Assembly (NCBI RefSeq): GCF_030811475.1
Contig: NZ_JAUSQV010000001.1
Location: forward strand, 2,987,001-3,051,000
DNA from: Nakamurella flavida
GTDB taxonomy: Bacteria; Actinomycetota; Actinomycetes; Mycobacteriales; Nakamurellaceae
Direction: 5' to 3'
DNA length: 64,000 nucleotides
Positions 5,313 to 24,293 of this stretch are shown in pieces. Below the pieces are notes generated by a model. The model worked only from the letters and a program-made list of their open reading frames with translations. It was not told where the DNA came from and did no database searches. The translations under genes and the position numbers were made by a program. Each line of letters begins with the position of its first letter. Within the stretch, counting starts at the first letter, position 1.

Positions 5313-5753
5313 TCAGTCCGCGGGCGGGAAGACCACGCCCTTGGTGATGAGGAAGCAGGAGAACGGCCGCGACTCCGAGGTGAGGATCGCGCCGTAGGCC
5401 TGCCGGGCCGCGGCGTAGAACGCGGTGCGGGCCAGCGGGGTCACGGTCACGTCGCGGCCCTCCGCGTCGGTGAGGATCCGGGTGATCTCGCCGTGGGTGG
5501 GGATGACGGCGTCAGCTTCGTCATCGGGCACCATGCCCCACACCGACGGGTCCACGAAGGTGTCGACGGGCAGCAGCTCGGCGATGGCCGCGATCGCCGT
5601 CGGGGCGTCGGCGCCGGCCAGGGTGGCCACCCGGGCGTGGTTGGCTGCGGCCGGGTAGTTCCGGTCGACCACGGCGAGCACGTCGCCGTGCCCCATCGCG
5701 GACAGCATCGTGAGCGCCTCGGTGGTGAGCAGGGCGGGGATTCCCTTGAGCAT
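5313..5753 (-). CDS. RbsD/FucU-family sugar mutarotase (L-fucose mutarotase-like)
   Basis: 146 residues, the usual size of the family. The opening MLKGIPALLTTEALTMLSAM followed by GHGDVLAVVDRNYPAA matches the FucU/RbsD fold, with the active-site His in MGHGD and the Asp-Asn pair that follows. The C-terminal segment SCFLITKGVVFP is also typical. The family interconverts anomers or ring forms of ribose, fucose and related sugars. GGAGACGAGA precedes ATG 5753. It sits between a 2-hydroxyacid dehydrogenase and a hydrolase, and opposite an SDR-lactonase pair. A mutarotase supplying the correct anomer to a lactol-oxidising dehydrogenase would make sense. The actual sugar is unknown. Confidence 0.85.
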   Translation of the reverse strand: MLKGIPALLTTEALTMLSAMGHGDVLAVVDRNYPAAANHARVATLAGADAPTAIAAIAELLPVDTFVDPSVWGMVPDDEADAVIPTHGEITRILTDAEGRDVTVTPLARTAFYAAARQAYGAILTSESRPFSCFLITKGVVFPPAD

Positions 5754-7466: not shown

Positions 7467-8234
7467 ATGACCGGTCGACTGTCCGGCAGGACGGCCCTGA
7501 TCACCGGGGCCGGATCGGGGATCGGGGAACGGGTCGCGCAGCGGTTCGCCGCCGAGGGCGCGACCGTGGTGCTCACCGACCGGGACCAGCAGGCGGCCGA
7601 ACGGGCCGCCGGGGCCTGCCCCGGTGCGGTGGCGATCCGGCTCGACATCTCCGACGAGGACAGCGTGGCCGCGGGCTACGCCGCCGCGGCGGAGCGGGGG
7701 CTGGAGATCGACGTCGTGGTGGCCAACGCCGGGGTACAGCTGTTCGGCCAGGACGCGCCCATCGCCGATCTCGACCTCGAGGTGTGGAACCGCACGGTCG
7801 GGGTCAATCTCACCGGCACCTTCCTGACCGTCAAGCACGCCGTGCGCGCCATGCTGACACCCGGCCGGTCCCGGCCCGGCGGGTCGATCATCCTCACCGG
7901 CAGCCCCACCGGGTTGAACGGCGAGGGTGCCGCGTTTACCGCGTACAGCAGTTCCAAGGCCGGCATCCACGGGCTCGCCCGCACCGTGGCCGCGGCCTAC
8001 GCGGCCGACGGGATCCGGGTGAACACCGTGGTCCCCGGATACACCGAGACCCCGCTGGTCACCGCCATCTCCGGCAACGCGGAGGACCGGGCGGCGATCG
8101 TCTCCCGCATCCCGCTCGGCCGGCCGGGTCGCCCCGAGGACGTCGAGGGGATCATGGTCTACCTGGCCGCCGACGAGTCGGCCTACGCCACCGGCAGCCT
8201 GTTCCGGGTGGACGGCGGGATGACCACCCTGTGA
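7467..8234 (+). CDS. SDR-family oxidoreductase (candidate sugar/lactol dehydrogenase)
   Basis: 255 residues, a classical short-chain dehydrogenase. The Rossmann motif TGAGSGIG covers residues 13-20, Asp41-type acidic residue in LTDRDQ suggests NAD preference, the NAG motif is VANAG, and the catalytic YxxxK is Tyr160-Lys164 in AYSSSKAG. GAGGAGGAC lies 4 bases before ATG 7467, which fixes the start. The next gene, a D-apionate-lactonase-like protein, starts inside its stop codon (GTGA). Such coupling suggests the SDR makes the lactone that the next protein opens. In described apiose pathways that step is done by a Gfo/Idh-type dehydrogenase, so this would be a replacement. Role inferred; the SDR fold is certain. 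Confidence 0.85.
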   Translation: MTGRLSGRTALITGAGSGIGERVAQRFAAEGATVVLTDRDQQAAERAAGACPGAVAIRLDISDEDSVAAGYAAAAERGLEIDVVVANAGVQLFGQDAPIADLDLEVWNRTVGVNLTGTFLTVKHAVRAMLTPGRSRPGGSIILTGSPTGLNGEGAAFTAYSSSKAGIHGLARTVAAAYAADGIRVNTVVPGYTETPLVTAISGNAEDRAAIVSRIPLGRPGRPEDVEGIMVYLAADESAYATGSLFRVDGGMTTL

Positions 8235-10078
8235 CCCCCGCCGACCCCTGGCTCGACGATGAGCAGGCCCCGCGGACGGTGCGGCACGGCGCGTGGTCGG
8301 TGCAGCTCACCGACGACTCCGTCGACGAGATCCGGTACGGCGGAACGCTCGTGCTGCGCGCGGTGCGCTGGGTCGTCCGGGACGAGAACTGGCGGACCGT
8401 GGACCTCGTCGTGACCCACCGGCCTCTCCCGGACGGCGGGGAGGACGAGCTGATCCTGGCCGTCGAGGGCCGTTCCGTCGACCCCGCCGTGGGGGTGGTA
8501 CTGACCGGCCAGTTGGTCCTCCGACCCGGCGTGCTCCGGTACGAGATCACCGGGTCGGTGCGACACCCGTTCCGCCGCAACCGATTCGGGCTGGTCGCCC
8601 TGCATTCGCCGGAGTGGGCCGGCACGCCGGTGACCGTCACGCACCCCGACGGGACCGGTTCCGACATCGTCGTGCCGGAGGAGATCGCCCCGCATCAGCC
8701 GGCCCGGGACATCGCGGCCCTTCGCTGGCGGGTCGGGACGCTCGCCGTCGAGATGGACGTGGTGGGCGACGTCTTCGAGATCGAGGACCAGCGCAACTGG
8801 ACCGACGCCTCGTTCAAGACCTACAGCACCCCGCTCAGCCGGCCGTTCCCGGTGGAGCTCGGCCCGGACGACGCGGTCACCCAGGCCATCGAGGTGCGCT
8901 GTGCGCCGTCCGGGGCCGGACCCGGCCGGCCCGCATCGGCCGCGCCCGTGCCGGCCGGCGCCTCGCAGCACGAGCAGTCCTGGGTCTTCCCCGAGATCGC
9001 CCTGGGGGCGTCCACCGCCCCCGACAGCGCCGCCCTGGACAGCACCGGCCCCGACCGGCGCTGGCCCGGCACTGTGCTCGTCGAGCTGGATCTGGCCGCG
9101 GCGAACTGGCGTGCGGCCCTGGCCCGCGCCGCGGGTGAGGGGGAGCGCCTGGACGTCCGGTTCGTCTGCCCGGGTCCCGCCCCGATCGCCGACGCCGTCC
9201 GGAGCCTCGCCGGGCACCCCGTGGCCCGCGTCGGCGTGGTCGACGGCGCCACCCACGTCAGCGAGCCGCCGCTGGTGGCCGCGCTGCTGGACGCGCTGGC
9301 CGGGATGCAGCCCGGCCCGGAGCCGGTGCTGGGCACCCGCGCCCACTTCACCGAGCTCAACCGCACGATCCAGCGCCTGGATCTGCCCGACGGCGCGGGC
9401 GTGGCGTTCAGCCTGACCCCGCAGATGCACGACCGCTCCCGACGCCAGGTCATCGAGTCGGTGCCGGTACAGCGGCGGGTGGCCGAGCAGGCAGTGGCCC
9501 TCGCCGCGGGGGCGCGGGTGCACATCGGCCCGGTCACCCTGCGGCCCCGGTTCAACGCGGTGGCCACCGCGCCGGCGCCGCCGGACCCGGCCATCGAGGT
9601 GAGCGCCGGGTACGGCGCCGAGTTCGTCCCGGAGGCGACCGACCCCCGACAGGTCTCCGACGGCGTCGCGGCCTGGGCCGTGGCGAGTGCGATCGCGCTG
9701 GCCGTGCCGGGCGTCGTGTCGCTGGCGTACTTCGAGACCTGCGGACCGCGCGGGGTGGTCACCGCCGCAGGGGAGCTGCTCCCCATGGGCCGCGCCGTCG
9801 AGTGGCTCGCCGAGCTGTCCGGAGGTCGGGTGCTGGCGTCCTCGCCGGCCACCACGGCGGACCCGGTCACGCACGTCGCGGTCCGCACGTCCGACACCCT
9901 GACGGTGCTGGCTGCCAACCTCTCCGCCGGTGCACGCGAGATCGAGATCACCGTCGGGGCCGGTTCTCCCGGAGAACTCACACACTCCGCCGGTACGGTC
10001 GGCCGCGTCGCCGACCGGGACGGGGTGCTGACGCTCACCGTTCCGGCGGCCGGGGCGGTGCGCTGGGTCCGGTCGTAG
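8231..10078 (+). CDS. D-apionate lactonase-like protein (three-domain)
   Basis: 615 residues from GTG 8231, which overlaps the SDR stop. The N-terminal ~190 residues are beta-rich and open with EIRYGGTLVLRAVRWVVRDE. The middle forms a probable TIM barrel with AHFTELNR (~372), VAFSLTPQMHD, QRRVAEQA, VHIGPVTLRPRFNAVAT and DPRQVSDGVAAWAVASA. The C-terminal ~90 residues are a beta domain (TLTVLAANLSAGAREIEI). This order and these phrases match what I recall of ApnL, the enzyme that hydrolyses D-apionolactone to D-apionate. No signal peptide. It could be a lactonase of a related branched or deoxy aldonolactone. Family call is moderately firm, substrate is inferred. Confidence 0.68.
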   Translation: MTPADPWLDDEQAPRTVRHGAWSVQLTDDSVDEIRYGGTLVLRAVRWVVRDENWRTVDLVVTHRPLPDGGEDELILAVEGRSVDPAVGVVLTGQLVLRPGVLRYEITGSVRHPFRRNRFGLVALHSPEWAGTPVTVTHPDGTGSDIVVPEEIAPHQPARDIAALRWRVGTLAVEMDVVGDVFEIEDQRNWTDASFKTYSTPLSRPFPVELGPDDAVTQAIEVRCAPSGAGPGRPASAAPVPAGASQHEQSWVFPEIALGASTAPDSAALDSTGPDRRWPGTVLVELDLAAANWRAALARAAGEGERLDVRFVCPGPAPIADAVRSLAGHPVARVGVVDGATHVSEPPLVAALLDALAGMQPGPEPVLGTRAHFTELNRTIQRLDLPDGAGVAFSLTPQMHDRSRRQVIESVPVQRRVAEQAVALAAGARVHIGPVTLRPRFNAVATAPAPPDPAIEVSAGYGAEFVPEATDPRQVSDGVAAWAVASAIALAVPGVVSLAYFETCGPRGVVTAAGELLPMGRAVEWLAELSGGRVLASSPATTADPVTHVAVRTSDTLTVLAANLSAGAREIEITVGAGSPGELTHSAGTVGRVADRDGVLTLTVPAAGAVRWVRS

Positions 10079-10124
10079 GGTGCCGCCGTCCGACGTCCTG
10101 TGATCCCCGGGAGGGAACCCCACC

Positions 10125-11306
10125 ATGACCGAGGCCTTCATGCCGTTGCAGCGCAACCGGTTCGACCCGGTGCCTGAGCTGGGGCAGCGGCGCAGCGAGC
10201 AGCCGGTGAGCAAACTCGAGTTCCCGTTCGGCATCTCGGCCTGGCTGGTCACCCGGTACGCCGACGTCAAGCAGGTGCTCGGGTCGGTCGACGGGTTCAG
10301 CAACGACTTCCGGCGGTTGACCGCGGCCGCCGGGGCGGGCGACGACGACACCACCGTGGATCCCGGCGGCCTCGGATTCGCCGACCCGCCCGACCACACC
10401 CGCCTGCGCAGGCTGCTCACGCCCCAGTTCACCGTGCGGCGCCTGGCCCAGCTCGGCCCCGGGATCGAGAAGATCATCACCGGGCGTTTGGACGCCATGG
10501 AGCAGGCCGGGCCGCCGGTGGACCTGGTGGCCGAGTTCGCCATGCCCATCCCGTCCCTGGTGATCTGCGAACTGCTGGGGGTGCCGTACGAGGACCGGGA
10601 GACGTTCCAGTCGCTGTCGGAGTCGCGGTTCGACCTGTTCGGCAACCTGGGCGATCCGATGGGGGCGATCACCGCCTCGCTGCAGTACCTCACCGGCCTG
10701 GTCGAGCAGCAGCGCCGCGACCCGGGGGACGGGTTGCTGGGCATGCTGATCCGGGAGCACGGCGACGAGATCACCGACGCCGAACTGGCCGGTCTGGCCG
10801 ACGGGCTGCTCACCGGCGGGCACGAGACCACGGCCAGCAGCCTGGCCCTGGGCGCCCTCGTGCTGATGGAACGGCCGGATCTGGCCGCGTCGCTGCGGGA
10901 TTCCGACACCGACACCGCCGCGGTGGTGGAGGAGCTGCTGCGCTACCTGACCGTGGTGCAGGTGGCGTTCCCCCGGTTCGCGCGGACCGATCTGGAGATC
11001 GGTGGTCAACGGATCGCCGCGGGGGACATGGTGCTGTGTTCGCTGTCCGCCGCCGACCGGGACTCCGAGCTGGTCGGCCGGCCCGACGAGGTCGCCCCCG
11101 ATCAGGCGGTCACCGCGCATCTGGCCTTCGGCTACGGCATCCACCGCTGCGTCGGGGCCGAACTGGCCCGCATCGAGCTGCGGGCGGCGTTCCCGGCCCT
11201 GGTGCGGCGGTTCCCCGGGCTGGCCGTGGCCGGGTCGGCGGCCGATCTGACCTTCCGCGAGTACTCCCTGGTGCACGGCATGGACGCGCTGCCCGTCACC
11301 TGGTGA
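10125..11306 (+). CDS. Cytochrome P450
   Basis: 393 residues, typical of soluble bacterial class I P450s. The oxygen-activating I-helix is LLTGGHETTASS (~230-240), the K-helix ExxR is in VEELLRYLTV, and the haem loop is FGYGIHRCVGAELAR with the proximal Cys at ~342. An upstream GGGAGGG supports ATG 10125. It belongs to the CYP105/107-like group of actinobacterial P450s, which hydroxylate varied small molecules and need ferredoxin and reductase. Neither partner is encoded in the window. It follows the lactonase by 46 bp and may be co-transcribed, but no link with sugar metabolism can be shown. Confidence 0.94.
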   Translation: MTEAFMPLQRNRFDPVPELGQRRSEQPVSKLEFPFGISAWLVTRYADVKQVLGSVDGFSNDFRRLTAAAGAGDDDTTVDPGGLGFADPPDHTRLRRLLTPQFTVRRLAQLGPGIEKIITGRLDAMEQAGPPVDLVAEFAMPIPSLVICELLGVPYEDRETFQSLSESRFDLFGNLGDPMGAITASLQYLTGLVEQQRRDPGDGLLGMLIREHGDEITDAELAGLADGLLTGGHETTASSLALGALVLMERPDLAASLRDSDTDTAAVVEELLRYLTVVQVAFPRFARTDLEIGGQRIAAGDMVLCSLSAADRDSELVGRPDEVAPDQAVTAHLAFGYGIHRCVGAELARIELRAAFPALVRRFPGLAVAGSAADLTFREYSLVHGMDALPVTW

Positions 11307-11318
11307 CGCGCGGCCGGG

Positions 11319-12860
11319 TCAGCGCAGGACGGCCCGGCAGGCCAGGTGCAGGGCCAGCCGCACGCCGGGGTCGTGCATGTCGACGCCGAGGATCTCCTGG
11401 ATCCGCTGGACCCGGCCGGTCACCGTGTTGCGGTGCACACCCAGGGCCTGCGCGGTGGCGGCGATGCCGGACTCGTGGTCGAGATAGCTGGTCAGGGTGA
11501 CGAGCAGGACGTCCGCCTCCCCGCGGCTGCCCGCCGCGTCCGCCCCGCGCAGCGGAGCCAGCAGGGAGCGGGCGGCCGGCAGGAACGTGTCGTTCTCGGT
11601 GCGGGCGAGCAGCAGCTGTTCCAGGCCGAGTCCGTCGACGCGGACGAACCAGTTGTTCCCCGACCGTTCCGCGGCGATGCGTGCGGCGTCGGCGGCCTCC
11701 CCGAGGGTGGCGGCGAGCCCGGCCCGATCGGCCTGCAGGGAGCCGACCCCGCCCGCCACGTTGAAGGACCGACGCAGGCTGTCGTGGACGGCCCGCAGTT
11801 GGTGCACGTGCCGCTCCAGGTCCCGCGGGCTGGGGGCGGGGACGAAGCGCAACCAGGCGGTGATGCCCCGGCCCTGGACGGCGGCGTGCGACTCGACGCC
11901 CAGCCCGGACAGCGCGGTGCCGACCGCCCGCAGCAGGGCGAAGGTGTCCAGCCGGGTGCGCCCGATGACCCGGTACCCCAGGTGGTAGCCGGTGGTCCGC
12001 CAGCCCCGCTCGGTCATCCGCCGCTCGACCTCCTGGTCGTGGCCCTCGCCCAGGTCCAGGAAGTCGCGCAGCAGGTCCGAGGTCACCGACGCGTCGGTGA
12101 CGGTGGCGACCTCGTCGATGAGGATGCGGGCGGCGACCGCGGGCATCGCGATCTCCGCGGCGACGGCCAGGGCGTCGAGCTGGCTGTCCCCGATGCCGGG
12201 GGCGAAGAACGCCAACCGCAGACCGGGGCGGGACGGGCTGTCCACCTGGACGGTGGCCACCGACACCTCGGGGGTGTGCACGATGCTGGTCCACCGGTCG
12301 TGCTGCACCAGATCGGGCCGGTCGGTGAGCCATCCGGCCAGCTCGCCCCCGTGCTCGTCGATCACCCCGGCGGCGTCCAGCAGGGCGACCCCGCTGCCGG
12401 TCACCGCGGCCAGGTGGCCGAGCAGATCGCCGAGGTCCTGCGCCGAGTAGCGGAACGCCGCGGTCAGTCGGCGGACCAGGTCCAGCACGATGGCGTCGCG
12501 GGCCAGGGCGAGTCGCCAGCAGGTCTCGGCCAGTTCGACCGGCCGGGCCACCGTCAGCACCGCCAGGTGCAGCCGGTCGGCCAGCCGTCGGGTCCCGGTG
12601 TCGAGCCGGTCGGCGTCCGGGACGGCCAGCGCGGTGTATCCGCGGTCGCGCACCCGCCGCAGCATCGCGTCCACCCGCCACGGCTCGCCCGGCAGCGGGG
12701 TGGCCACGATGGCCAGTCGACCTGCGCCGTCGGTGTCCAGGAGATCCTCGGTCAGCGCGAGCAGCGCGGTCGGCCACGCGCCGCCGACGGGCCCGGCGAC
12801 CTGCCGCAGACCGCCGTCGGCCGGTTCGGCGGCCAGGGCGGGCAGATCGATGCCGCTCAC
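11319..12860 (-). CDS. PucR-family transcriptional regulator
   Basis: 513 residues. The C-terminus carries the PucR-type helix-turn-helix (SGIAATAQALGVHRNTVTGRVQRIQEILG), preceded by LLVTLTSYLDH, the standard junction. The N-terminal ~120 residues resemble the PucR purine-catabolism domain, and the middle is a GGDEF-like/GAF-like sensor region. GTG 12860 overlaps the stop of the third DUF917 gene (GTGA). PucR proteins usually activate nitrogen-compound catabolic operons in response to a pathway metabolite. Here the gene is the last of the permease-hydantoinase A-DUF917 operon, so it is likely the specific regulator, made in step with the enzymes. Candidate operator: palindrome at 19241-19255. 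Confidence 0.88.
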   Translation of the reverse strand: MSGIDLPALAAEPADGGLRQVAGPVGGAWPTALLALTEDLLDTDGAGRLAIVATPLPGEPWRVDAMLRRVRDRGYTALAVPDADRLDTGTRRLADRLHLAVLTVARPVELAETCWRLALARDAIVLDLVRRLTAAFRYSAQDLGDLLGHLAAVTGSGVALLDAAGVIDEHGGELAGWLTDRPDLVQHDRWTSIVHTPEVSVATVQVDSPSRPGLRLAFFAPGIGDSQLDALAVAAEIAMPAVAARILIDEVATVTDASVTSDLLRDFLDLGEGHDQEVERRMTERGWRTTGYHLGYRVIGRTRLDTFALLRAVGTALSGLGVESHAAVQGRGITAWLRFVPAPSPRDLERHVHQLRAVHDSLRRSFNVAGGVGSLQADRAGLAATLGEAADAARIAAERSGNNWFVRVDGLGLEQLLLARTENDTFLPAARSLLAPLRGADAAGSRGEADVLLVTLTSYLDHESGIAATAQALGVHRNTVTGRVQRIQEILGVDMHDPGVRLALHLACRAVLR

Positions 12861-13894
12861 CCGGACGCGCCCGGTTCCAGGTCGGTGACCCCGTAGGCGG
12901 CCGGGGTGACGCGGCGGAGGCGTTCGGGCCGATCGGTCCACCAGGTCGGTGCGGCGAGCTCGATCACCGCGATGTGGTGGGCGGGGGACAGATCGGTGAT
13001 CTGCAGGACGGCGCGGGTGCGCACGTCGAGCACGGCCAGGATCGTCGGTGCGGCACTGATCAGCACCCCGTCGGTCATGAGGGCCAGTGTCTCCGTCCGG
13101 GTGATCAGCCGGTGCACGGCCCCACCCGGGCCCAAGAGGTGGAAGGACTGCACCTGGGGGTCGACCGGGTCGGTGAGCACGGCCTGGATGCGGCCCTGGG
13201 CCAGCAGCCGGCCACCGATCGCGGCGGCGAGATTGCCGATGGACGCCTCCCGCGCGGCCACGAACGCGCGGCCGAGGGTGAGGGCGCGGGTGGTCGACCC
13301 GGTCACGGCGTGCTCGACCAGGTCGCCGGCGGTGAAGCCCCCGACGACCACCGCCCCGGTGCCCCCGGACAGCCGCAGCGCCGCGCGGACCATCGCCTCG
13401 GCGTCCATCGGCCGGGGCCGGTCGACCAGCCCGACGCCGTCACCGGTGGTGGTCGCCACCACCAGCCCGGGGACCCCGTCGACGAGCAGGCTGACCTGGT
13501 CGATGCCGGGCAGGGCCCGGCCCATGCAGTCCGCGTCCAGCAGGGTGCGGCCCTGCGCGACGACGAAGCCGGTGAGCCCGTTCAGGCCGCCGATCTCCAG
13601 GGTGCACAGGGCCGGGGCGGTGGTCCCCGTCCACCGCTGCACCGCGGCGACGGCCGCGGTCAGCAGTTCCGGGCCGGGCAGCCGCTCGGTCATCACCATC
13701 GTCGACCCGGCCAGGGCGACGGCCAGGCAGGGTGTGGCCGGGTCCACGGCATCGGCCGGCACCACCTCGATCGGCCACGGGGCGCCGAGGGCCAGCAGCT
13801 CGAGCTGGGTGGTGGCGCCGCCGCCGCCCGATCCGAGCAGGGCGCACCCGTGCGCGAGGGCGTCGACGTCACGGCGTTCGACGCGGAGGCTCAC
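12857..13894 (-). CDS. DUF917 family protein, divergent third paralogue
   Basis: 345 residues from GTG 13894. It aligns by eye with the two preceding DUF917 proteins over most of its length: CALLGSGGGGATTQLELL at the start, DADCMGRALPGIDQ (compare DADGMGRAFPEL), GGFTAGDLVEHAVTGSTTRAL and a C-terminal ILAVLDVRTRAVLQITDL. The GGGGDPYIG motif of its siblings is changed to GGGGATTQL, so a conserved Asp-Pro-Tyr is lost. It may be a non-catalytic or altered-specificity subunit. It is 11 bp behind the second copy and overlaps pucR. DUF917 is, as I recall, now linked to S-methyl-thiohydantoin desulfurases. Confidence 0.75.
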   Translation of the reverse strand: MSLRVERRDVDALAHGCALLGSGGGGATTQLELLALGAPWPIEVVPADAVDPATPCLAVALAGSTMVMTERLPGPELLTAAVAAVQRWTGTTAPALCTLEIGGLNGLTGFVVAQGRTLLDADCMGRALPGIDQVSLLVDGVPGLVVATTTGDGVGLVDRPRPMDAEAMVRAALRLSGGTGAVVVGGFTAGDLVEHAVTGSTTRALTLGRAFVAAREASIGNLAAAIGGRLLAQGRIQAVLTDPVDPQVQSFHLLGPGGAVHRLITRTETLALMTDGVLISAAPTILAVLDVRTRAVLQITDLSPAHHIAVIELAAPTWWTDRPERLRRVTPAAYGVTDLEPGASG

Positions 13895-13905
13895 GGGCGG
13901 CCAGC

Positions 13906-15027
13906 CTAGAGCGCGGCGCCCGCGGTCCGCGCGATCCGTTCCACCGGGACGAAGTCCTCGGACAGTCCGAAGGCCACCGGCCCGAAGGTGACCAGGGCCT
14001 CGGGTGTGCGCATCAGGTCCGGGGTGGAGATGCCCAGCACCCGCACCCGCTGGCCGTACCGCAGCCGTTCGGTGGTGATCGGCTCGGCGGTCTCGTGGTC
14101 CAGCACGCAGATCAGGTCGGGCACGATCGCCAGCAGCTCCCCGTCCCGGTGGGCGGTGAGATTCTCGTTCTGGAAGGAGATCTCGAGCTCCGCGCCGGAC
14201 CCGGTCGGCGCGATGCGGACCCGACCCCGGGCGAAGCCCTCGGTGGTCCGCCGTTCTACGTCCACGATCTTGCCCTCGAACAGGTCGACCACGTGGTGGT
14301 AGAGGGTGGGGGCGAGCACCTTCTGGATAGCGTCGAACGGAGAGCGCTTGTCCTCCCGGGCGATCCGGATGGCCCGGCCGAGGGACAGGGCCATCGAGAT
14401 GGTCCGCGGGACGGCGGTGCGCCGGACGTCGGCGCCGCTCATCGCGTACTCGGCGATGTGCCCGACGCCGCCGAGGCGGATGGTGACCGCGCGGGCGAGC
14501 CACTCCAGCTGGCGGTCGTCGTCACCGGTGTCGATGACGATCTTCTCGCCCCGCTCGCCGGCCAGGGCCAGCGGCGACCCGTGCACGCCGTAGACCGCGA
14601 AGGTCTCCATGGACAGCTCCGGGAAGGCCCGGCCCATCCCGTCGGCGTCGACCACCGGCAGGCCGGTCTCCGCCGCGACCACGAACGGGATCATCGAGTT
14701 GATCCCGCCGCACTCGATGGGCATGGTGGCGTCCGCCGTACGCCCGAGGTGCTCCTCGAGGGTGCGCAGCGCGAGCGTCGGCTCGGTGCCGGCCGGGATC
14801 TTCTCGATCATCACCGTGGGCGCGCCCATCTGGGCGGTCGGGATGACGAACGCGTCGTCGGGCAGATCGGCCGGGTCACCGGGGTCGAGCACGGTGATCG
14901 AGCCGGCGCCCAGCGCCTGCTCGACCAGCTTGGAGCCGATGTACGGGTCCCCTCCGCCGCCGGTGCCGAGCAGGGTGGCGCCGCGGGCGAGATCGGGCAG
15001 ATCGGCGGCGGTCAGCTGCCAGCTCAT
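13906..15027 (-). CDS. DUF917 family protein (S-methyl-thiohydantoin desulfurase-like), second copy
   Basis: 373 residues. It starts with MSWQLTAADLPDLARGATLL then GTGGGGDPYIGSKLVEQAL, the family's hallmark glycine loop. Further landmarks are MGAPTVMIEKIPAG, ECGGINSMIPFVVAAETGLP, VDADGMGRAFPEL and a C-terminal LICVLDHETAEPITTERLRYG. ATG 15027 overlaps the stop of the first copy (ATGA), which fixes the start against a longer upstream frame. It is clearly a tandem-duplication product of the neighbouring DUF917 gene, sharing long stretches of identity. The pairing suggests a hetero-oligomer. The reaction is not established here; cyclic amide or thiohydantoin chemistry is inferred from the family and from the hydantoinase neighbour. 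Confidence 0.85.
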   Translation of the reverse strand: MSWQLTAADLPDLARGATLLGTGGGGDPYIGSKLVEQALGAGSITVLDPGDPADLPDDAFVIPTAQMGAPTVMIEKIPAGTEPTLALRTLEEHLGRTADATMPIECGGINSMIPFVVAAETGLPVVDADGMGRAFPELSMETFAVYGVHGSPLALAGERGEKIVIDTGDDDRQLEWLARAVTIRLGGVGHIAEYAMSGADVRRTAVPRTISMALSLGRAIRIAREDKRSPFDAIQKVLAPTLYHHVVDLFEGKIVDVERRTTEGFARGRVRIAPTGSGAELEISFQNENLTAHRDGELLAIVPDLICVLDHETAEPITTERLRYGQRVRVLGISTPDLMRTPEALVTFGPVAFGLSEDFVPVERIARTAGAAL

Positions 15028-17728: not shown

Positions 17729-17801
17729 TTCGGTGCTCCTGGATCGCGGTGGTTCGGCCACCGGGACGTGCGGCGGCACAGGACGTTCGGGGTGGGACGG
17801 C

Positions 17802-19145
17802 TCAGACGGTGGTGCGCTCCGCGGCCTTCTCCGGCGTCCGGGTCTCCCCCATACCGGTCACCAGGCCGAGCCGGCCGGCGACGATGTACAGCACCATCGA
17901 CAGCACCAGGCTCAGCACCGACGGGATGCCCCAGGTGACGAAGTAGCCGATGACCGACGACAGCGCCCAGATGATCAGGGTGGCCGGGACCAGCCGCGGT
18001 GCGGTGGCGGGCAGCGCCCCGCTCTGCCGGCTCGACTCCAGGTCCGGCCGCCAACGGCGGACCACGAAGTACTCGGCGACCATGATCCCGGCGATGGGCG
18101 GGAAGACGACCGACAGCACGATCAGGAACTGCATGAAGTTCTCGAGGATGCCGGCCGCGGCCAGCACGGTGCCGGCCACACCCAGGATGACGGTGGCCGG
18201 GACGCGATGCAGCTGGCGGCGGAAGGCCACCGACACGAAGTTGAGCAGGCCCAGCGACGCGGAGTAGAGGTTCCAGTCGTTGATCTTGAGCGTGCCGGTG
18301 ATGACGATGAGCAGCCCGATGAAACCGATGGACGACGTCACGATGGCGACGATGTCGCCGCTGCGGGCGGCGTGGGCCAGCAGGACGCCGGACAGCCCGA
18401 TGACGAACTCGCCCAGGCTCACCCCGACCACGGTCTGCTTGACGACATCGGCCGGGGTGCGGTTGAACCGGGTCATGTCGCCGGTGATGATCGCGCCGAC
18501 GATGACGCCGCCGGCCACGATGCCCGATCCGGTGAGGATGGAGATCTGCGGCCCGGCCGGTGCGCTGGACAGCAGGTCACCCAGGTCGTGCCGGGACAGC
18601 TCGGCGATGACGGACCAGGCGACCAGGACGAGGAACAGCGGCACGGTGATGTTGGCGAGCACCTGCATGCCCTTGAACCCGAACGCCACGATGGCGGTGA
18701 CGGCCAGGCCGCAGATCAGGCTCCAGGCCCACCCGGGCATCGCGCCGGGCATCAGCGAGCCGAGCGAGTCGGCGGCGATGGCCGACTGGATGCCGAACCA
18801 GCCGATCAGGCTGATGCCGACGGCCAGACCCACGATGGACGCGCCGACCTCGCCGAAGCCGGTCCAGCGGGCCAGCAGTGCGGTGTTCAGCCCCTCGCGC
18901 TGGGCGATGATGCCGACCAGGCACATGATCACCTCGACGATGATCGAGCCGAGCAGGATGGCCAGGAAGGCGTTGCTGAAGCTCATGCCGTAGCCGAGGG
19001 TGGCGCCCAGCAGGAACTGCGACAGGGCCGAGATCTGCCCGAACCGCTGGACGGCGATGGGGAACCAGTGCCTCCGGTCGGTCGTCGGCACCCGTGACAG
19101 GGTGTAGTCGTCGATGTGGGCACTGCTCGTGGCGCCTGCCGCCAT
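17802..19145 (-). CDS. NCS1-family cytosine/purine/hydantoin permease
   Basis: 447 residues with about 12 hydrophobic segments. The start region (DYTLSRVPTTDRRHWFPIAVQRFGQ), the early helix LGATLGYGMSFSNAFLAILLGS and GDMTRFNRTPADVV are typical of the CodB/NCS1 group. NCS1 carriers take up cytosine, allantoin, hydantoins and related nucleobase-like compounds with sodium or protons. ATG 19145 follows CCGAGGAGCAGTC, a good ribosome-binding site. It is the first gene of the hydantoinase A-DUF917-PucR operon, so the most probable cargo is a hydantoin-like ring compound. Exact substrate unknown. Confidence 0.9.
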   Translation of the reverse strand: MAAGATSSAHIDDYTLSRVPTTDRRHWFPIAVQRFGQISALSQFLLGATLGYGMSFSNAFLAILLGSIIVEVIMCLVGIIAQREGLNTALLARWTGFGEVGASIVGLAVGISLIGWFGIQSAIAADSLGSLMPGAMPGWAWSLICGLAVTAIVAFGFKGMQVLANITVPLFLVLVAWSVIAELSRHDLGDLLSSAPAGPQISILTGSGIVAGGVIVGAIITGDMTRFNRTPADVVKQTVVGVSLGEFVIGLSGVLLAHAARSGDIVAIVTSSIGFIGLLIVITGTLKINDWNLYSASLGLLNFVSVAFRRQLHRVPATVILGVAGTVLAAAGILENFMQFLIVLSVVFPPIAGIMVAEYFVVRRWRPDLESSRQSGALPATAPRLVPATLIIWALSSVIGYFVTWGIPSVLSLVLSMVLYIVAGRLGLVTGMGETRTPEKAAERTTV

Positions 19146-19240
19146 GACTGCTCCTCGGGGTGATCGCAACAAGTGCTGATCACGCTAGGTCGTCACACTC
19201 CGGTGGGCCATGTGCAGGGCGTCGATCGGTTCGGCCTGGA

Positions 19241-19255
19241 TGTGCGGACTGCACA
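19241..19255. promoter_or_regulatory. Candidate operator upstream of the permease operon
   Basis: An inverted repeat TGTGC-N5-GCACA lies 96-110 bp before the permease start in the 148-bp gap behind the DUF1684 gene. A second TGTGC occurs at 19211. A possible minus-strand -10 TAGCGT lies closer to the gene, near 19180. The position fits an activator such as the operon's own PucR, but the binding site of this PucR is unknown. Confidence 0.3.
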
Positions 19256-19293
19256 CGGGCATGTGACGGCCCGATGACCGGGTGCTCAGGTGC

Positions 19294-20166
19294 TCAGTGC
19301 GAACTCTGCTCGCCGGATCGCCGGGCTCGGAGCTCACCGGCCACGACGGCGGCCGCGATGCGGTTCTCCGCCGGCGGGATCGGGCACGAGTAGAAGTCGC
19401 TGAACCCGCAGGGCGGCACGATCGCCCGGTTGAAGTCCAGGGTGAGGGCGGCGCCGTCGGGCACGGCCGGGAAGCGCAGGAAACGGCCGGGGGCGTAGCT
19501 GCTCCGCCCGGTGGTGGCGTCCGCGAACACCAGCACCAGGTGGTTCCCGTCGGCGAAGACGGTAAAGACGGAGGGGACTCCCTCGATGGTCGCCTCGACG
19601 GTGCCGGGCACGGCCTTGGTGTGGCCGTCGTCCGACGCGCGGGTGAACCCCCAGGGCACGCGCTGGATCTCGCCGGACGAACGGAACACCGCGTCGACCG
19701 CCCAGCGCGGGTCGTACTCGGCGACCTCGATCCCGGCGAAGGCGAGCCGGGTGGGGGCGGCGGCGTCGTAGATGCGCAGTTCGACGGCGGTGGCGTCGAG
19801 CCCGAAGACGTCCACGGTGATCCCGCCCGAGCTCAACAGCGGGAGGCCCTCGACGCCCAGCCGGTTTACCAGGGTCTCCCCGGTCAGCGGGGTGACGCCG
19901 GCGGCCGTGTGCAGCCGGACCGGCCCGGTGGGGGTGACGCGGACGCCGTTCTCACCGGGGACCCGCCGCACCGTGGCCGGGAGTCCGCGCACCGCCGCCG
20001 GTTCGGCCCCGACGGGCTGGTAGTCGATCAGCGCGGTGTTGCCGACCGGACCGGACACCTGCTGCAGGCGCTCCTGCTGCCAGGCGAGATGCGCGGCTGC
20101 GGCTGCGGCTGTGGCTGTGGCTGTGGCGGTGTCTGTGGAGGGCGAGGACGGGTGCGGGTCGGCCAT
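19294..20166 (-). CDS. DUF1684 domain-containing protein
   Basis: 290 residues from ATG 20166. The family signature is at the C-terminus: LTLDFNRAIVPPCGFSDFY then SCPIPPAENRIAAAV, with conserved Asn-Pro-Pro-Cys-like and Cys-Pro residues. GRSSYAPGRFLRFP just before it is also typical. The biochemical role of DUF1684 is unknown to me. Near the N-terminus a hexanucleotide microsatellite (20093-20127) encodes a Thr-Ala/poly-Ala stretch of ~13 residues, likely a flexible linker. It lies between the permease operon and the FadR-type regulator and faces the same way as both, without evident co-transcription. Confidence 0.82.
   Translation of the reverse strand: MADPHPSSPSTDTATATATAAAAAAHLAWQQERLQQVSGPVGNTALIDYQPVGAEPAAVRGLPATVRRVPGENGVRVTPTGPVRLHTAAGVTPLTGETLVNRLGVEGLPLLSSGGITVDVFGLDATAVELRIYDAAAPTRLAFAGIEVAEYDPRWAVDAVFRSSGEIQRVPWGFTRASDDGHTKAVPGTVEATIEGVPSVFTVFADGNHLVLVFADATTGRSSYAPGRFLRFPAVPDGAALTLDFNRAIVPPCGFSDFYSCPIPPAENRIAAAVVAGELRARRSGEQSSH
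20093..20127. repeat. Hexanucleotide microsatellite in the DUF1684 gene
   Basis: On the coding (minus) strand the run consists of CCACAG units followed by CCGCAG units, encoding alternating Thr-Ala then poly-Ala. The unit length of 6 keeps the frame, so copy-number change would only alter linker length. The same unit order occurs at 33731-33793 in an unrelated gene. Confidence 0.8.
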
Positions 20167-20236
20167 GCGCCCATCCTGGATCACCATCGGCCGGGGCCGT
20201 CCGACGGGGTGATCGGTGTCGGCACTCCTGATGGGC

Positions 20237-20974
20237 TCAGTCCAGGTCGGCCATGGAGGCGGTCAACCGCCGGTCGGCCGCGTCCATCAGGGCCTTCATC
20301 CGCTCCTCGGCGAGTTCGGGGGAGCGGCTGCCGATCGCCTGGAACACCGCCTCGTGCTCGAGCAGGGTCTCCTCCAGGGTGCCGGGGACGCGCAGGGTGC
20401 GGTCGAACCAGACCTGCAGGAGCGATCGGACGCTGTGCAGGATGTCCTGCAGCACGGTGTTCCCGGCCAGGTGCGCGGCCTCGAGATGGAAGGCGATGTC
20501 GGCCCGGACGAACGCCTCGACATCCCCGCCGGCCGAACGCATCCCGTCCATGTGCACGCCGAGTCGGGCGATGCCCTCCTCGGTGGCCCGGGCGGCGGCC
20601 AGCCGGGCGGTGATCACCTCGAGGTACTCCCGCACCTCGATGAGGTCCCGGGTCCGGGGCTGGCCGAGCAGCAGGCTCCACTTCAGCGCCTGCGGCAGCA
20701 TCTCCGAGCTGTCCGACGTCAGGTAGGAGCCGGACCCGGGGCGCACCTCGACGATGCCCAGGACGTCCAGGGCGGCCATCGCCTCCCGCAGCGTGGACCG
20801 GGCCACGCCCAGCGAGGCGGCCAGGGTGCGTTCGGCGGGGAGTCGGGTGCCGGGCGCGAAGTGGCCGGTGGTCAGGTGGGTCAGCAGCTGTTTGGCCACG
20901 GCGCCCACCGTGGAGTAGCGCTCCACCGGCGACGGCTGGAACGCCTCGGCCGCGGGTGGCGTCACCGCGGTCAC
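20237..20974 (-). CDS. FadR-subfamily GntR transcriptional regulator (FCD domain)
   Basis: 245 residues. The N-terminal winged helix is PGTRLPAERTLAASLGVARSTLREAMAALDVLGIVEVRPGSGSYL (standard GntR). The C-terminal FCD domain has RADIAFHLEAAHLAGN and LEEHEAV-type histidines, the metal- or ligand-binding set of this subfamily, which usually senses organic acids or sugar acids. GTG 20974 is preceded by GGAAGCGAG. The gene diverges from the transporter operon at 21257, and a perfect palindrome of FadR type sits between them. It is very probably the local repressor of the ACS transporter-TIM barrel-dehydrogenase operon and of itself, released by a sugar-acid ligand. Confidence 0.9.
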   Translation of the reverse strand: MTAVTPPAAEAFQPSPVERYSTVGAVAKQLLTHLTTGHFAPGTRLPAERTLAASLGVARSTLREAMAALDVLGIVEVRPGSGSYLTSDSSEMLPQALKWSLLLGQPRTRDLIEVREYLEVITARLAAARATEEGIARLGVHMDGMRSAGGDVEAFVRADIAFHLEAAHLAGNTVLQDILHSVRSLLQVWFDRTLRVPGTLEETLLEHEAVFQAIGSRSPELAEERMKALMDAADRRLTASMADLD

Positions 20975-21078
20975 CTCGCTTCCGGCCTGGGCACGCCCGA
21001 CGGCCCGGCTTCGGGGTCGGTGGGCGGGTTCGCCGCAGTGTAGCCACGGCAGCGGCCGACGCGGGCTGGGCCGAACGA

Positions 21079-21106
21079 GTGGTCAATTGGTCGACCAATT
21101 GACCAC
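21079..21106. promoter_or_regulatory. 28-bp perfect palindrome, probable operator of the FadR-type regulator
   Basis: The half GTGGTCAATTGGTC is followed directly by its exact reverse complement. The centre, TTGGTCGACCAA, matches the TGGTC/GACCA core bound by FadR-type GntR proteins, and outer TGGTC/GACCA arms repeat it. The right arm overlaps the -35 box of the divergent operon. Confidence 0.75.
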
Positions 21107-21127
21107 CTGACGGTCTGGCCCTACCGT
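21099..21127 (+). promoter_or_regulatory. Predicted promoter of the transporter operon
   Basis: The -35 box TTGACC (21099-21104) is separated by 17 bp from the -10 box TACCGT (21122-21127). The -35 lies inside the right arm of the palindrome, so bound regulator should block RNA polymerase. About 125 bp of leader remains before GTG 21257. Confidence 0.55.
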
Positions 21128-21256
21128 TTTCGCAGACGACAGACCTGCGCCGCGGCGGTCTCCAGGTCCCGTCCCGCCGGTTCCTCGACCGGCGGCATCG
21201 GCCCGTCGGTTCCCGTGAGCAGCGCCGCGGGAGCCGCGTACATCCCTGGAGTCATC

Positions 21257-22606
21257 GTGGACCTGGCAGCGAAGACCTCGGTCGAGAGATCGACCATCAA
21301 GAAGGTGTCGACCCGGCTGGTGCCGTTCGTCGCCCTGATGTTCTTCATCAACTATCTCGACCGGACCGCGATCTCCTTCGCCGGCCCGAACGGGATGAAC
21401 ACCGATCTGGGGCTGACCGCCGCGCAGTTCGGCTTCGCCTCCGGCGTCTTCTTCATCGGGTACATCTTCCTCGAGGTCCCCAGCAACATGGCCCTGCACC
21501 GCTTCGGTGCCCGCCGCTGGTTGGCCCGCATCATGGTCAGCTGGGGCATCGTGGCAGCGCTCTTCGCCTGGGTGCAGAACGTCGAGCAGCTCTACATCCT
21601 GCGGTTCGTGCTGGGTGTGGCCGAGGCCGGCTTCTTCCCCGGCGCCATCCTGTTCCTGAGCCTGTGGGTGCCCGCCGCGCACCGCAGCAAGATCCTCGCG
21701 CTGTTCTACCTGGCCCAGCCGCTGACCACGGTGATCGGTGCCCCGCTGGCCGGCGCCCTGCTCGGCGTGGACGGCGTGTTCGGCCTCGAGGGTTGGCGCT
21801 TCATGTTCCTGGTCGTCGCGATCCCGGCGATCATCGTCGGCGTCATCGCGTGGTTCTACCTGCCCGACCGGCCGGGCGACGCGAAGTGGCTCAACCGTGA
21901 CGAGCAGCAGTGGCTGACCGTCGCGCTCGAGAAGGAGGCCAGCACCAAGACCAGCGGCGCCAAGCACGGCGGCGGTCTGAAGGCGGCCTTCACCAACGGT
22001 CGCGTGTGGACCCTGTGCTTCATCTACTTCGGGTTCATCTACGGCCTGTACGCCCTGGCCTTCTTCCTGCCCACCATCATCAGTGGGTTCGAGGCGCAGT
22101 TCGGGACGAAGTTCGGGTTCCTGGAGCGCGGCCTGATCACCGCCATCCCGTACCTCCCGGCCGCGGTGTTCCTCTACTTCTGGTCGCGGGACGCGCAGCG
22201 CCGCGGTGTGCGCACCTGGCACATCGCCGCCCCCGCCGTCGTCGGCGGCGTCAGCATCCCCGTCGCCCTGTACATGGGTTCGCCGGCGGCCACGGTCGCC
22301 GTCATCACCGTCACCGCGTGCGCCATCTTCGGTGCGCTGCCGAACTTCTGGACCGTACCGACCCGTTTCCTCACCGGTGCGGCCGCCGCGGCCGGCATCG
22401 CCCTGATCAACTCGTTCGGCAACATCGCCGGCTTCGCGGCCGGGTACGTGACCGGCTGGCTCAAGGACGCCTCGGGTTCCTACAACCTGCCCATGTTCGT
22501 GGTCGGCGGGCTGCTGCTGGTCTCCGCGGGGTTGATGGTCGCGTTGTCCCGGCGGGCACCGGCCCCCACGGCCGACACGGCCGACCAGCTGCCCCAGGTG
22601 CACTGA
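21257..22606 (+). CDS. MFS transporter, anion:cation symporter (ACS) type, probable sugar-acid importer
   Basis: 449 residues, 12 predicted membrane helices. MFFINYLDRTAISFAGPNG in helix 1 and SNMALHRFGARRWLARIM in the loop after helix 2 are typical of ACS symporters such as the glucarate and phthalate carriers, which import organic anions with protons. GTG 21257 is preferred to an upstream in-frame ATG (21215) because TGGAG lies ~5 bases before it and residues before it are not conserved-looking. The next gene starts 5 bp after its stop. With the two downstream enzymes and the FadR-type operator, the likely cargo is a branched or C5 sugar acid such as D-apionate. The cargo is an inference. 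Confidence 0.85.
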   Translation: MDLAAKTSVERSTIKKVSTRLVPFVALMFFINYLDRTAISFAGPNGMNTDLGLTAAQFGFASGVFFIGYIFLEVPSNMALHRFGARRWLARIMVSWGIVAALFAWVQNVEQLYILRFVLGVAEAGFFPGAILFLSLWVPAAHRSKILALFYLAQPLTTVIGAPLAGALLGVDGVFGLEGWRFMFLVVAIPAIIVGVIAWFYLPDRPGDAKWLNRDEQQWLTVALEKEASTKTSGAKHGGGLKAAFTNGRVWTLCFIYFGFIYGLYALAFFLPTIISGFEAQFGTKFGFLERGLITAIPYLPAAVFLYFWSRDAQRRGVRTWHIAAPAVVGGVSIPVALYMGSPAATVAVITVTACAIFGALPNFWTVPTRFLTGAAAAAGIALINSFGNIAGFAAGYVTGWLKDASGSYNLPMFVVGGLLLVSAGLMVALSRRAPAPTADTADQLPQVH

Positions 22607-22611
22607 TCCCG

Positions 22612-23409
22612 GTGACGATCGGACTGGGCACCTACGCCTACTTCTGGCGCGCCTCGGATCAGGCGGAGACGCCGATGAGCCTCGGGCAGATGATCGCGGA
22701 CACCGCCGAGCAGGGCGTCGGCGTCTTCCAGATCTGCGACTACCCGGCTGTCGCCGCGCTCGACGACGAGGCCCTGGAGGCGTTGCGCCGGCAGGCCGAG
22801 CGTGGGGGAGTACGGCTGGAGCTGGGGACGAGAGGGGTCGTCCCGCAGCACCTGTCGCGCTACCTGGAGTTGGCCCGACGGCTGGACGCGGTGATCGTGC
22901 GGTCGATGCTGAACACCGCCGACCACCGGCCGGGCATCACCGAGGCGGTCGATCTGCTCGGCGAGGTGCTGCCGGCGTACGAACGGGCCGGGGTCCGCAT
23001 CGCCCTGGAGACCTACGAGCAGGTGTCGTCCACCGATCTGGTCGACCTGGTCCGCACCGTGGACAGCCCGGCCCTGGGCATCTGCTCCGACCCGGCGAAC
23101 TGCGTGGCGGCGCTCGAACTGCCGGCCGACGTGATCGACCGGGTGGCTCCGTACGTGGTGAACATGCACATCAAGGACTTTCGCTTCACCCGCCAGGACG
23201 GTTGGGTCGGCTTCACGCTGGTCGGCGCGCCGCTCGGTGAGGGCCTGCTGGACTACCGCGCGATGATCGAGCGGATCGACCCGGCGGCCCGCGGGCTGAG
23301 CCAGATCATCGAGCACTGGTTGCCGTGGCAGGGCACCCCCGGGGCGACCTGCGCCCTGGAACAGCAGTGGACCGACCACAACCTTTCCTACCTGAGGAGC
23401 GCGTCATGA
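22612..23409 (+). CDS. Xylose isomerase-like TIM-barrel enzyme, candidate 3-oxo-isoapionate decarboxylase
   Basis: 265 residues from GTG 22612. It is an AP-endonuclease-2/xylose isomerase-like TIM barrel: FQICDY early, IALETYEQVSS (metal-binding Glu), LGICSDPANCVA, VVNMHIKDFRF (His-x-Lys-Asp metal site) and IIEHWLPWQ near the C-terminus. Such proteins are usually annotated sugar phosphate isomerase/epimerase. Its stop overlaps the start of the ApnO-like dehydrogenase (ATGA). As I recall, OiaC, which decarboxylates 3-oxo-isoapionate to L-erythrulose, belongs to this fold and sits beside ApnO. A plain isomerase or 3-keto acid epimerase is the alternative. Fold is firm, reaction is inferred from context. 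Confidence 0.6.
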   Translation: MTIGLGTYAYFWRASDQAETPMSLGQMIADTAEQGVGVFQICDYPAVAALDDEALEALRRQAERGGVRLELGTRGVVPQHLSRYLELARRLDAVIVRSMLNTADHRPGITEAVDLLGEVLPAYERAGVRIALETYEQVSSTDLVDLVRTVDSPALGICSDPANCVAALELPADVIDRVAPYVVNMHIKDFRFTRQDGWVGFTLVGAPLGEGLLDYRAMIERIDPAARGLSQIIEHWLPWQGTPGATCALEQQWTDHNLSYLRSAS

Positions 23410-24293
23410 CCGTTGCACCCGACACCCGCACCGATTCCCTGACCATCGCCGTCATCGGCGCCGGCGGCAAGATGGGCATGCGGGTCTCCAACAACCTGCA
23501 GCGCACCGGGCACACCGTGCACTACAGCGAGAACTCGCCGGCCGGTCGCGACCGGGTCAGCGAGCAGGGTCGGGAGATCACCGACTCCGACACCGCCGTC
23601 GCCCAGGCCGATGTGGTCATCCTGGCCGTGCCCGACCGCATCCTCGGCGCGGTGTCGGCCGACCTCGTCCCGAAGATGCGATCCGGCAGCATCGTGCTCA
23701 CCCTGGACCCGGCCGCGGCCTACGCCGGTCTGCTGGCCGAGCGGGAGGACATCTGCTTCGCCGTCGCCCACCCCTGCCACCCGTCGGTGTTCTACCAGCG
23801 GACCACGGCCGAGCAGTGGGCCGACACCTTCGGTGGCATCGCCGCGCCGCAGGAGGTCGTGGCCGCCCTCGAGGCCGGCACCGACGAGCAGCGCGCCGCC
23901 GCCGAGACCGTCATCCGGGCCATGTACGCGCCGGTGGTCGACGTGCACTGGGTGACGGTCAAGCAGCTCGCCGTCCTCGAGCCCACCCTGGTCGAGACGG
24001 TCGCCTGCATGATCGGCGCCCTGCTCAACGAGGCCCTGCAGGAGACAGTGCACACCGTCGGCGTCCCCGAGCCCGCCGCCAAGGCGATGCTCTTCGGACA
24101 CATCCAGGTGGCCCTGGCCAACGGCCTGCGCGGCGACAACCCCTTCTCCGAGGCCTGTCTCATCGCCATGGACTACGGCCGCGACACCCTGATCAAGCCG
24201 GACTGGAAGAAGATCTTCGACGACAGCGAGCTCAACGGGAACATCGCCCGCATGCTCAAGCTCGACGTGGACGCGGTCACGCCCAAGGCGTGA
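23406..24293 (+). CDS. Phosphogluconate dehydrogenase C-terminal-type dehydrogenase, candidate D-apionate oxidoisomerase
   Basis: 295 residues. The Rossmann domain starts with IAVIGAGGKMGMRVSNNLQRTGHTVHY. The following AHPCHPSVF motif, VHWVTVKQLAVLEPTLVETV and the C-terminal DYGRDTLIKPDWKKIFDDSELN match the PGDH-C family to which D-apionate oxidoisomerase (ApnO) belongs. ApnO oxidises D-apionate and migrates its hydroxymethyl group to give 3-oxo-isoapionate. GAGGAGC lies just before ATG 23406, which overlaps the preceding stop. The neighbouring TIM barrel and transporter fit the pathway. Other members of this family act on related hydroxy acids, so the substrate remains an inference. Confidence 0.65.
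   Translation: MTVAPDTRTDSLTIAVIGAGGKMGMRVSNNLQRTGHTVHYSENSPAGRDRVSEQGREITDSDTAVAQADVVILAVPDRILGAVSADLVPKMRSGSIVLTLDPAAAYAGLLAEREDICFAVAHPCHPSVFYQRTTAEQWADTFGGIAAPQEVVAALEAGTDEQRAAAETVIRAMYAPVVDVHWVTVKQLAVLEPTLVETVACMIGALLNEALQETVHTVGVPEPAAKAMLFGHIQVALANGLRGDNPFSEACLIAMDYGRDTLIKPDWKKIFDDSELNGNIARMLKLDVDAVTPKA

Follow-up and report, generated by a model that had tools for sequence, protein, structure and literature searches.

The OiaC branch of D-apionate degradation was reportedly described by Carter and colleagues in 2018, so the route discussed here is not itself new. We describe a gene set in the actinobacterium Nakamurella flavida, located in a window of 64,000 nucleotides (C1:2987001-3051000) of the single-contig, 4.32-Mb genome, that is probably an OiaC-type D-apiose catabolic set split in two. 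Most likely, the set breaks apiose down to a four-carbon sugar by the known route, with an unrelated first enzyme, a short-chain dehydrogenase/reductase (SDR), and an unusual second enzyme, a divergent ApnL-like protein. The OiaC D-apionate route resembles N. flavida in its major facilitator superfamily (MFS) transporter, in its OiaC and ApnO orthologs and in having LerK-, LerI- and DerI-type enzymes encoded in the genome, but in N. flavida the genes for the last three lie 1.1 Mb away and D-apiose, not apionate alone, appears to be the entry point. Pectobacterium carotovorum DSM 30168 (L086) carries an OiaC-route cluster, and the Enterobacterales OiaC loci have a SorC-type regulator, whereas that of N. 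flavida is of the FadR type.

Two further systems are close to that of N. flavida. Nine Halomonadaceae and Pseudomonas loci with ApsD, ApnL, OiaC and ApnO (L042, L074, L077, L083, L087, L088, L096, L101 and L108) would carry out the same four steps and, in eight of the nine, have a FadR-type regulator match, as in N. flavida. They differ in that ApsD belongs to the Gfo/Idh family and is not an SDR, and in that ApnL is encoded by two open reading frames (ORFs), an N-terminal domain and a barrel, in all but L088, where it is a single ORF; their ApnL also lacks the beta-7 glutamate discussed below, in those rows with a letter at that position. The ApsD-ApnL-ApnO-OiaK-OiaX route of Salipiger (L005) and Pararhizobium (L006) has the ApnL and ApnO families in common with N. 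flavida but uses a four-carbon-acid-type kinase, a RuBisCO-like decarboxylase, an ABC importer and an ApnO that is 43-44% identical. In published work, a Rhodobacteraceae strain growing on D-apiose has an ApnL, ApsD, ApnO, OiaK and OiaX set (PMC11747546), the RuBisCO-like enzymes are credited to Carter et al. 2018 (PMC6302742), and E. coli lineages with a D-apiose cluster containing kinase and transketolase genes are described, as are gut Bacteroides and Clostridia that degrade apiose (PMC13001218). This literature names proteobacteria, Bacteroides and Clostridia; the present analysis would add several actinobacterial families with a complete set of apiose genes.

In the pathway that we propose, the SDR would convert D-apiose, the presumed substrate, to D-apionolactone, and the ApnL-family protein would, judging from its family and position, convert the lactone to D-apionate, which an ACS-type MFS transporter under a divergent FadR-type regulator may also import. 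From their family and clade, ApnO would convert D-apionate to 3-oxo-isoapionate and the OiaC TIM barrel, probably metal-dependent, would decarboxylate the latter to L-erythrulose. Enzymes of the LerK, LerI and DerI types would then yield D-erythrose 4-phosphate, and no RuBisCO-like protein would be involved. The SDR and ApnL-like genes form one half of the set (7467-10078), and the MFS, OiaC-like and ApnO-like genes (21215-24293), together with the divergent regulator, the other; the SDR and ApnL-like genes overlap by 4 bp, as do the TIM barrel and PGDH_C genes (Table 1). Genes of the same orthology groups cluster recurrently in other genomes, and orthologs of ApsD or of RuBisCO-like proteins were not found in N. 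flavida. All of the genes named in a first-pass annotation of this DNA are ORFs at the positions it had assigned, and its ACS importer and FadR-type regulator were borne out by MFS_1 and by GntR and FCD matches, respectively.

Table 1. Features of the proposed D-apiose gene set in the N. flavida window (positions are those of the window).
Feature	Position	Strand	Support
SDR-family dehydrogenase, proposed D-apiose 1-dehydrogenase in place of ApsD	7467..8234	+	adh_short_C2 1.5e-58
ApnL-family protein P0001, proposed D-apionolactonase, divergent actinobacterial type	8231..10078	+	NF049900 177.7 bits
GntR/FCD (FadR-type) regulator, divergent to MFS gene	20237..20974	-	FCD 1.7e-26, GntR 9.5e-18
28-bp perfect palindrome, likely regulator operator	21079..21106		between regulator and MFS gene
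ACS-type MFS transporter, proposed D-apionate importer	21215..22606	+	MFS_1 2.9e-44
OiaC-type TIM barrel P0003, proposed 3-oxo-isoapionate decarboxylase	22612..23409	+	AP_endonuc_2 6e-20
ApnO-type PGDH_C protein P0004, proposed D-apionate oxidoisomerase	23406..24293	+	PGDH_C 4e-61
RbsD/FucU-family mutarotase, possible accessory, weak	5313..5753	-	PF05025 1.7e-26

The context argues strongly for the putative OiaC and ApnO assignments. A tblastn search against plasmids identified OiaC and ApnO homologs next to each other in Erwinia sp. E602 and Pantoea At-9b. Their run also includes an MFS transporter and dihydroxyacetone-kinase-family and triose-phosphate-isomerase-family proteins, and a ribose-5-phosphate isomerase B is close by; this matches the LerK, LerI and DerI set of the OiaC route. 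The TIM barrel is 64% identical to that of N. leprariae and ~55% (54.8%) to those of Erwinia and Pantoea; for the PGDH_C protein the values are 82% and 62-64%, against 43-44% for OiaX-linked ApnO. Residues E133, D160, H186 and E234 of the TIM barrel are invariant in an alignment of 23 rows and, from the fold, would form the metal site of an AP_endonuc_2-type TIM barrel, while the predicted structure (mean pLDDT 93.4) most closely matches Art22 and D-tagatose 3-epimerase-like sugar isomerases/epimerases. A genome scan with an OiaC alignment yielded 377 relatives, and all counts for OiaC loci refer to the best 80 of these, with taxon labels assigned by hand; Fisher tests on the loci take no account of how these are related. 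ApnO was present in all 80, directly downstream and on the same strand in 77, and LerK, LerI and DerI in 60, 63 and 60, respectively. In N. flavida, too, ApnO adjoins the E-D-H-E barrel, although LerK lies elsewhere in the genome. Since nine proteobacterial loci with both ApsD and ApnL carry the OiaC-ApnO pair, the pair is tied to apiose.

In an ApnO tree, the window protein was sister to that of N. leprariae within an OiaC-linked group that also held Pectobacterium and the loci with ApsD and ApnL, i.e., it is a PGDH_C protein in the clade of ApnL-linked ApnO proteins. This was a quick tree of 62 of 89 rows (27 near-duplicates were dropped) in which the program flagged long branches. Branch support of 97-98 separated the grouping from three OiaX-linked rows; also outside it were three Propionivibrio/Accumulibacter rows, which are OiaC-linked and ~40% identical. 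In loci from the latter genera (L055, L111 and L113), an OiaC-type gene occurs with a distant ApnO (41-43%), but the genes are ordered differently and LerK is missing. The ApnO-like and OiaC-like genes of the first-pass annotation thus held up, as did its statement that no RuBisCO-like protein is present. The ApnO and ApnL families do serve an apionate route through RuBisCO-like enzymes (OiaK/OiaX or OiaT) as well, but we regard that route as highly improbable here, given that P0004 groups with OiaC-linked ApnO and apart from the OiaX-linked rows, that OiaX occurs in 0 of the 80 OiaC loci, and that RuBisCO_large had no match in any of the four genomes searched, the whole N. flavida genome among them.

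The SDR is likely the first enzyme, and occupies the place that ApsD has in proteobacteria. Among the 46 actinobacterial OiaC loci, 13 carry ApnL, nine of them with SDR orthologs of 63-73% identity; among the 34 proteobacterial loci, ten carry ApnL, nine of them with ApsD, the tenth (L048) being cut by a contig end. SDR and ApsD were together in none of the 80 loci, and no case of the SDR without ApnL was found there. Nor was an ApsD ortholog found in N. flavida (G000), N. leprariae (G008) or the actinobacterial genomes G273 and G332, the best matches having 26-35% identity and at most 50 bits; within ApsD loci, by comparison, identity is 54-60%. Because the SDR is found in actinobacterial ApnL loci and ApsD in proteobacterial ones, with no ApsD ortholog detected, we infer that the SDR replaces ApsD. 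The motifs TGA..GIG and YxSSK and residue D38 are kept in all ten aligned SDR rows, and the genomic context suggests D-apiose as the substrate. Among the open-licence papers listed, none had a title pointing to an apiose dehydrogenase of the SDR family. Judged from sequence, the new parts of this variant of a known pathway would be the SDR in ApsD's place and a divergent glycosidase-fold lactonase with a beta-7 glutamate, both in actinobacteria. A specific SDR family is thereby named as a candidate apiose dehydrogenase unrelated to ApsD, and annotation relying on ApsD and the ApnL equivalog would miss the route.

Gene order in relatives bears on whether the two halves form one pathway. In N. 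leprariae (G008/L018/L034), a divergent regulator gene is followed by OiaC, ApnO, ApnL-like, SDR and cupin genes, the ApnL-like protein being 42-44% and the SDR 73% identical to those of the window. Because these four genes stand in one run there, the two halves appear to belong together. The order in G332 is LerK-DerI-LerI-OiaC-ApnO-SDR-ApnL-like, and in G273 MFS-LerK-DerI-OiaC-ApnO-SDR, then two other genes and the ApnL-like gene; LerI was not called there. In G262, only the lower half is present. In Planosporangium, Arenivirga and Arthrobacter mobilis, the ApnL-like and SDR genes lie beside OiaC-ApnO, with the two halves side by side in Arenivirga. The split order of the window was absent from all other loci examined. 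These loci agree with the first-pass proposal of one pathway divided by a hydantoinase-containing stretch. Nucleoside-hydrolase-like proteins (PF01156) are encoded near the apiose sets of G273 and G332 (L028:2675-3565 and L029:13056-14018) and might hydrolyse a compound that contains apiose.

We also surveyed 396 evenly drawn actinobacterial genomes, N. flavida included, with 6, 3 and 6 first-look candidates scored per genome. Close SDR orthologs were found in three genomes (N. flavida itself, G273 and G332), ApnL-like matches in five (three strong, in the SDR genomes, and two weak) and ApnO matches in seven (four close, three at 38-40%). All three genomes with the SDR and a strong ApnL-like match fall within the four with a close ApnO; as G273 and G332 share a genus, this co-occurrence amounts to about two independent cases. 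G285 and G295 also have ApnL-like genes, but we rejected these as support for pairing with the SDR, the nearby reductases being 33-36% identical to it.

The MFS transporter matches the HpaX and D-galactonate transporter models, both under their own cut-offs, and is 67% identical to the MFS protein in the Erwinia OiaC cluster, while the regulator is 70% identical to its N. leprariae counterpart. The 28-bp palindrome is likely the operator of this regulator. The genome has a single copy of its core, TTGGTNNACCAA, at the site given in Table 1. Sites without mismatch to the core lie between the regulator and the next gene in 16 of the 83 loci scanned, i.e., those of N. leprariae, L030 and 14 labelled Streptomyces or Kitasatospora; three further loci have the core elsewhere. 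A search for an operator common to the two halves found none. Being unique in the genome, the palindrome core links neither the two halves to each other nor either to the kinase cluster.

Several observations weigh against a single D-apiose pathway. The putative identities of OiaC and ApnO rest on family, clade and context, not on characterised ApnO or OiaC sequences. In the survey, G273 and G332 belong to the same genus and few candidates were scored per genome. Four Arthrobacter loci (L053, L068, L103 and L105) have ApnL without the SDR in the stretch examined, which extends 2.2-2.4 kb beyond ApnL, and another gene was called beside ApnL in three of them. The half with the SDR and ApnL-like genes is without the regulator's palindrome core. 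Within the genus, ApnO is present in 2 of 17 genomes and the ApnL-like gene in 3 of 17, and Nakamurella G012 (L033/L128) has an SDR of 46-48% identity, an ApnL-like gene, a class II aldolase-like gene and a four-carbon-acid-type kinase, with no ApnO match in its genome; the link of the SDR-ApnL pair to apionate therefore does not extend to all genomes. The G012 set possibly serves a different route or sugar, and part of the G012 SDR reads as N.

The halves might instead be separate systems, with MFS-OiaC-ApnO serving imported D-apionate only and the SDR and ApnL-like proteins serving another sugar. The G012 pair with its kinase and aldolase would fit this arrangement, as would the 11 kb of unrelated genes between the halves, the operator core at the MFS half only, and the OiaC loci that have neither ApnL, SDR nor ApsD (33 of the 46 from actinobacteria and 24 of the 34 from proteobacteria). 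Against it, the genes are together or adjacent in N. leprariae, Planosporangium, Arenivirga, G332 and others, and the SDR never occurs without ApnL among the OiaC loci. We consider separate systems unlikely, if conceivable, and prefer a single split pathway.

The sole family match of P0001 is NF049900, D-apionate lactonase, whose equivalog cut-off of 750 bits is far above the 177.7 bits obtained; Pfam gave no match at an E of 0.01. With a score so far under that of the equivalog, which is a further point against the D-apiose reading, P0001 is not to be filed as ApnL by sequence alone. The first-pass call of an ApnL-like lactonase stands as to family, in the form of what appears to be a divergent actinobacterial version of ApnL, with a lactonase role suggested by family and position; the N. 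leprariae ortholog adjoins ApnO. All seven rows of one alignment carry the N-terminal motif FExEDQRxW unchanged, and of the barrel residues, E375 and H400 are present in 31/31 rows and D471 in 30/31 (31 of 40 ORFs were counted; of the nine without the barrel that were dropped, eight were N-terminal halves of split genes). This motif and these three residues are common to P0001 and proteobacterial ApnL.

A sequence search of solved structures found no relative of P0001. In its structural model (mean pLDDT 78.7), residues 240-615 match GH51 arabinofuranosidases (Z 25.5, root-mean-square deviation (rmsd) 3.2, 349 aligned residues, 10% identity) and also GH30 enzymes; whole-protein Foldseek matches to GH97/GH36-type enzymes were set aside, with an rmsd of ~20. 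Clan GH-A enzymes have two catalytic glutamates, one after beta-4 and one at the end of beta-7. In the model, E375 lies just after beta-4 and E502 at the end of beta-7, and we take these positions, by strand order and not by superposition, to match the catalytic pair. The beta-7 residue differs between the groups, which likewise counts against the D-apiose reading: it is Glu in 18/18 actinobacterial and 0/11 proteobacterial rows (Ala or Ser), with two proteobacterial rows gapped there. As a glutamate lies 3 or 4 residues past the E502 position in three proteobacterial rows (L007, L077 and L101), the beta-7 alignment is not beyond doubt.

The GH51 and GH30 matches and the distribution of E502 would suit a cytoplasmic glycosidase, e.g., an apiosidase freeing D-apiose from an imported glycoside, with the SDR's lactone opening unaided. 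A GH2-family protein near the set in G332 and ABC-transporter-like ORFs within a few kb in G273 and G332 (the latter by a reader's judgement) point the same way. We nonetheless think a glycosidase improbable, since P0001 has the N-terminal domain, motif and barrel residues of proteobacterial ApnL and the same genomic position as ApnL, no glycoside importer was noted beside it in the window, and the paired glutamates depend on strand order and on the doubtful beta-7 alignment. While a lactonase remains our preferred reading of P0001, a more speculative and quite doubtful idea is that the actinobacterial ApnL-type enzyme, retaining both clan GH-A glutamates on a glycosidase fold, may act on apiosides either in addition to lactone opening or ahead of it; glycosidase and lactonase would then be two states of one family and, with the SDR, provide an apiose entry unrelated to ApsD. 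The glycosidase-like fold, together with a glutamate at a catalytic position (beta-7) that one branch of the family has and the other lacks, makes it testable how the lactonase arose.

Beyond L-erythrulose, for which the first-pass annotation had placed a kinase elsewhere in the genome, LerK-, LerI- and DerI-type genes are indeed clustered at C1:1.890-1.898 Mb (L016:7926-15718). A DhaK-DhaL-type kinase, a TIM-family isomerase and an RpiB-family isomerase, the second such protein, occur together there, at 47-55% identity to the Erwinia set; the kinase is a 569-residue Dak1 protein, presumably with a DhaL part, that is 55% identical to Erwinia LerK. In N. leprariae, a LerK homolog (56%) lies on the ApnO contig, ~66 kb from ApnO. 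The enzymes at C1:1.89 Mb could serve L-erythrulose, although the cluster itself probably serves another substrate. The region C1:1.889-1.902 Mb (L016:7926-19141) also encodes an ACS-type MFS transporter, an SDR, a 3-hydroxyacyl-CoA-dehydrogenase-like protein and a TIM barrel resembling PDB 5TNV. Its substrate may be a polyol, or else a pentonate that undergoes oxidation at C3 and then decarboxylation. The description of the route as fully non-phosphorylative is correct as far as L-erythrulose and not beyond. An oxo-isoapionate kinase is, as had been stated, not in the stretch, but a four-carbon-acid sugar kinase family gene is present at ~C1:1.9 Mb beside an LtnD-like dehydrogenase, and looks to be of the threonate/erythronate type. 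The first-pass interpretation as an apiose route thus captured the nature of the gene set, but left the SDR, the likely first enzyme, unmentioned, and the OiaC branch itself had reportedly been described already.

Among minor features, the RbsD/FucU-type mutarotase of the window is 39% identical to L049:5431-5871, directly beside ApnL in Arenivirga; the remaining loci searched had no match, so that an accessory role is suggested by this single other locus. The ~11 kb between the halves encodes a P450, a PucR-like regulator, three S-Me-THD/DUF917-type proteins, a hydantoinase, a cytosine-type permease and a DUF1684 protein, all unrelated to the pathway; the assignments of the PucR-like regulator and of two S-Me-THD-type proteins are a reader's judgement with no family match behind them, one S-Me-THD-type gene having been scanned. 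The GC content of the window is ~73%, ranging from 67 to 76% over 2-kb steps.

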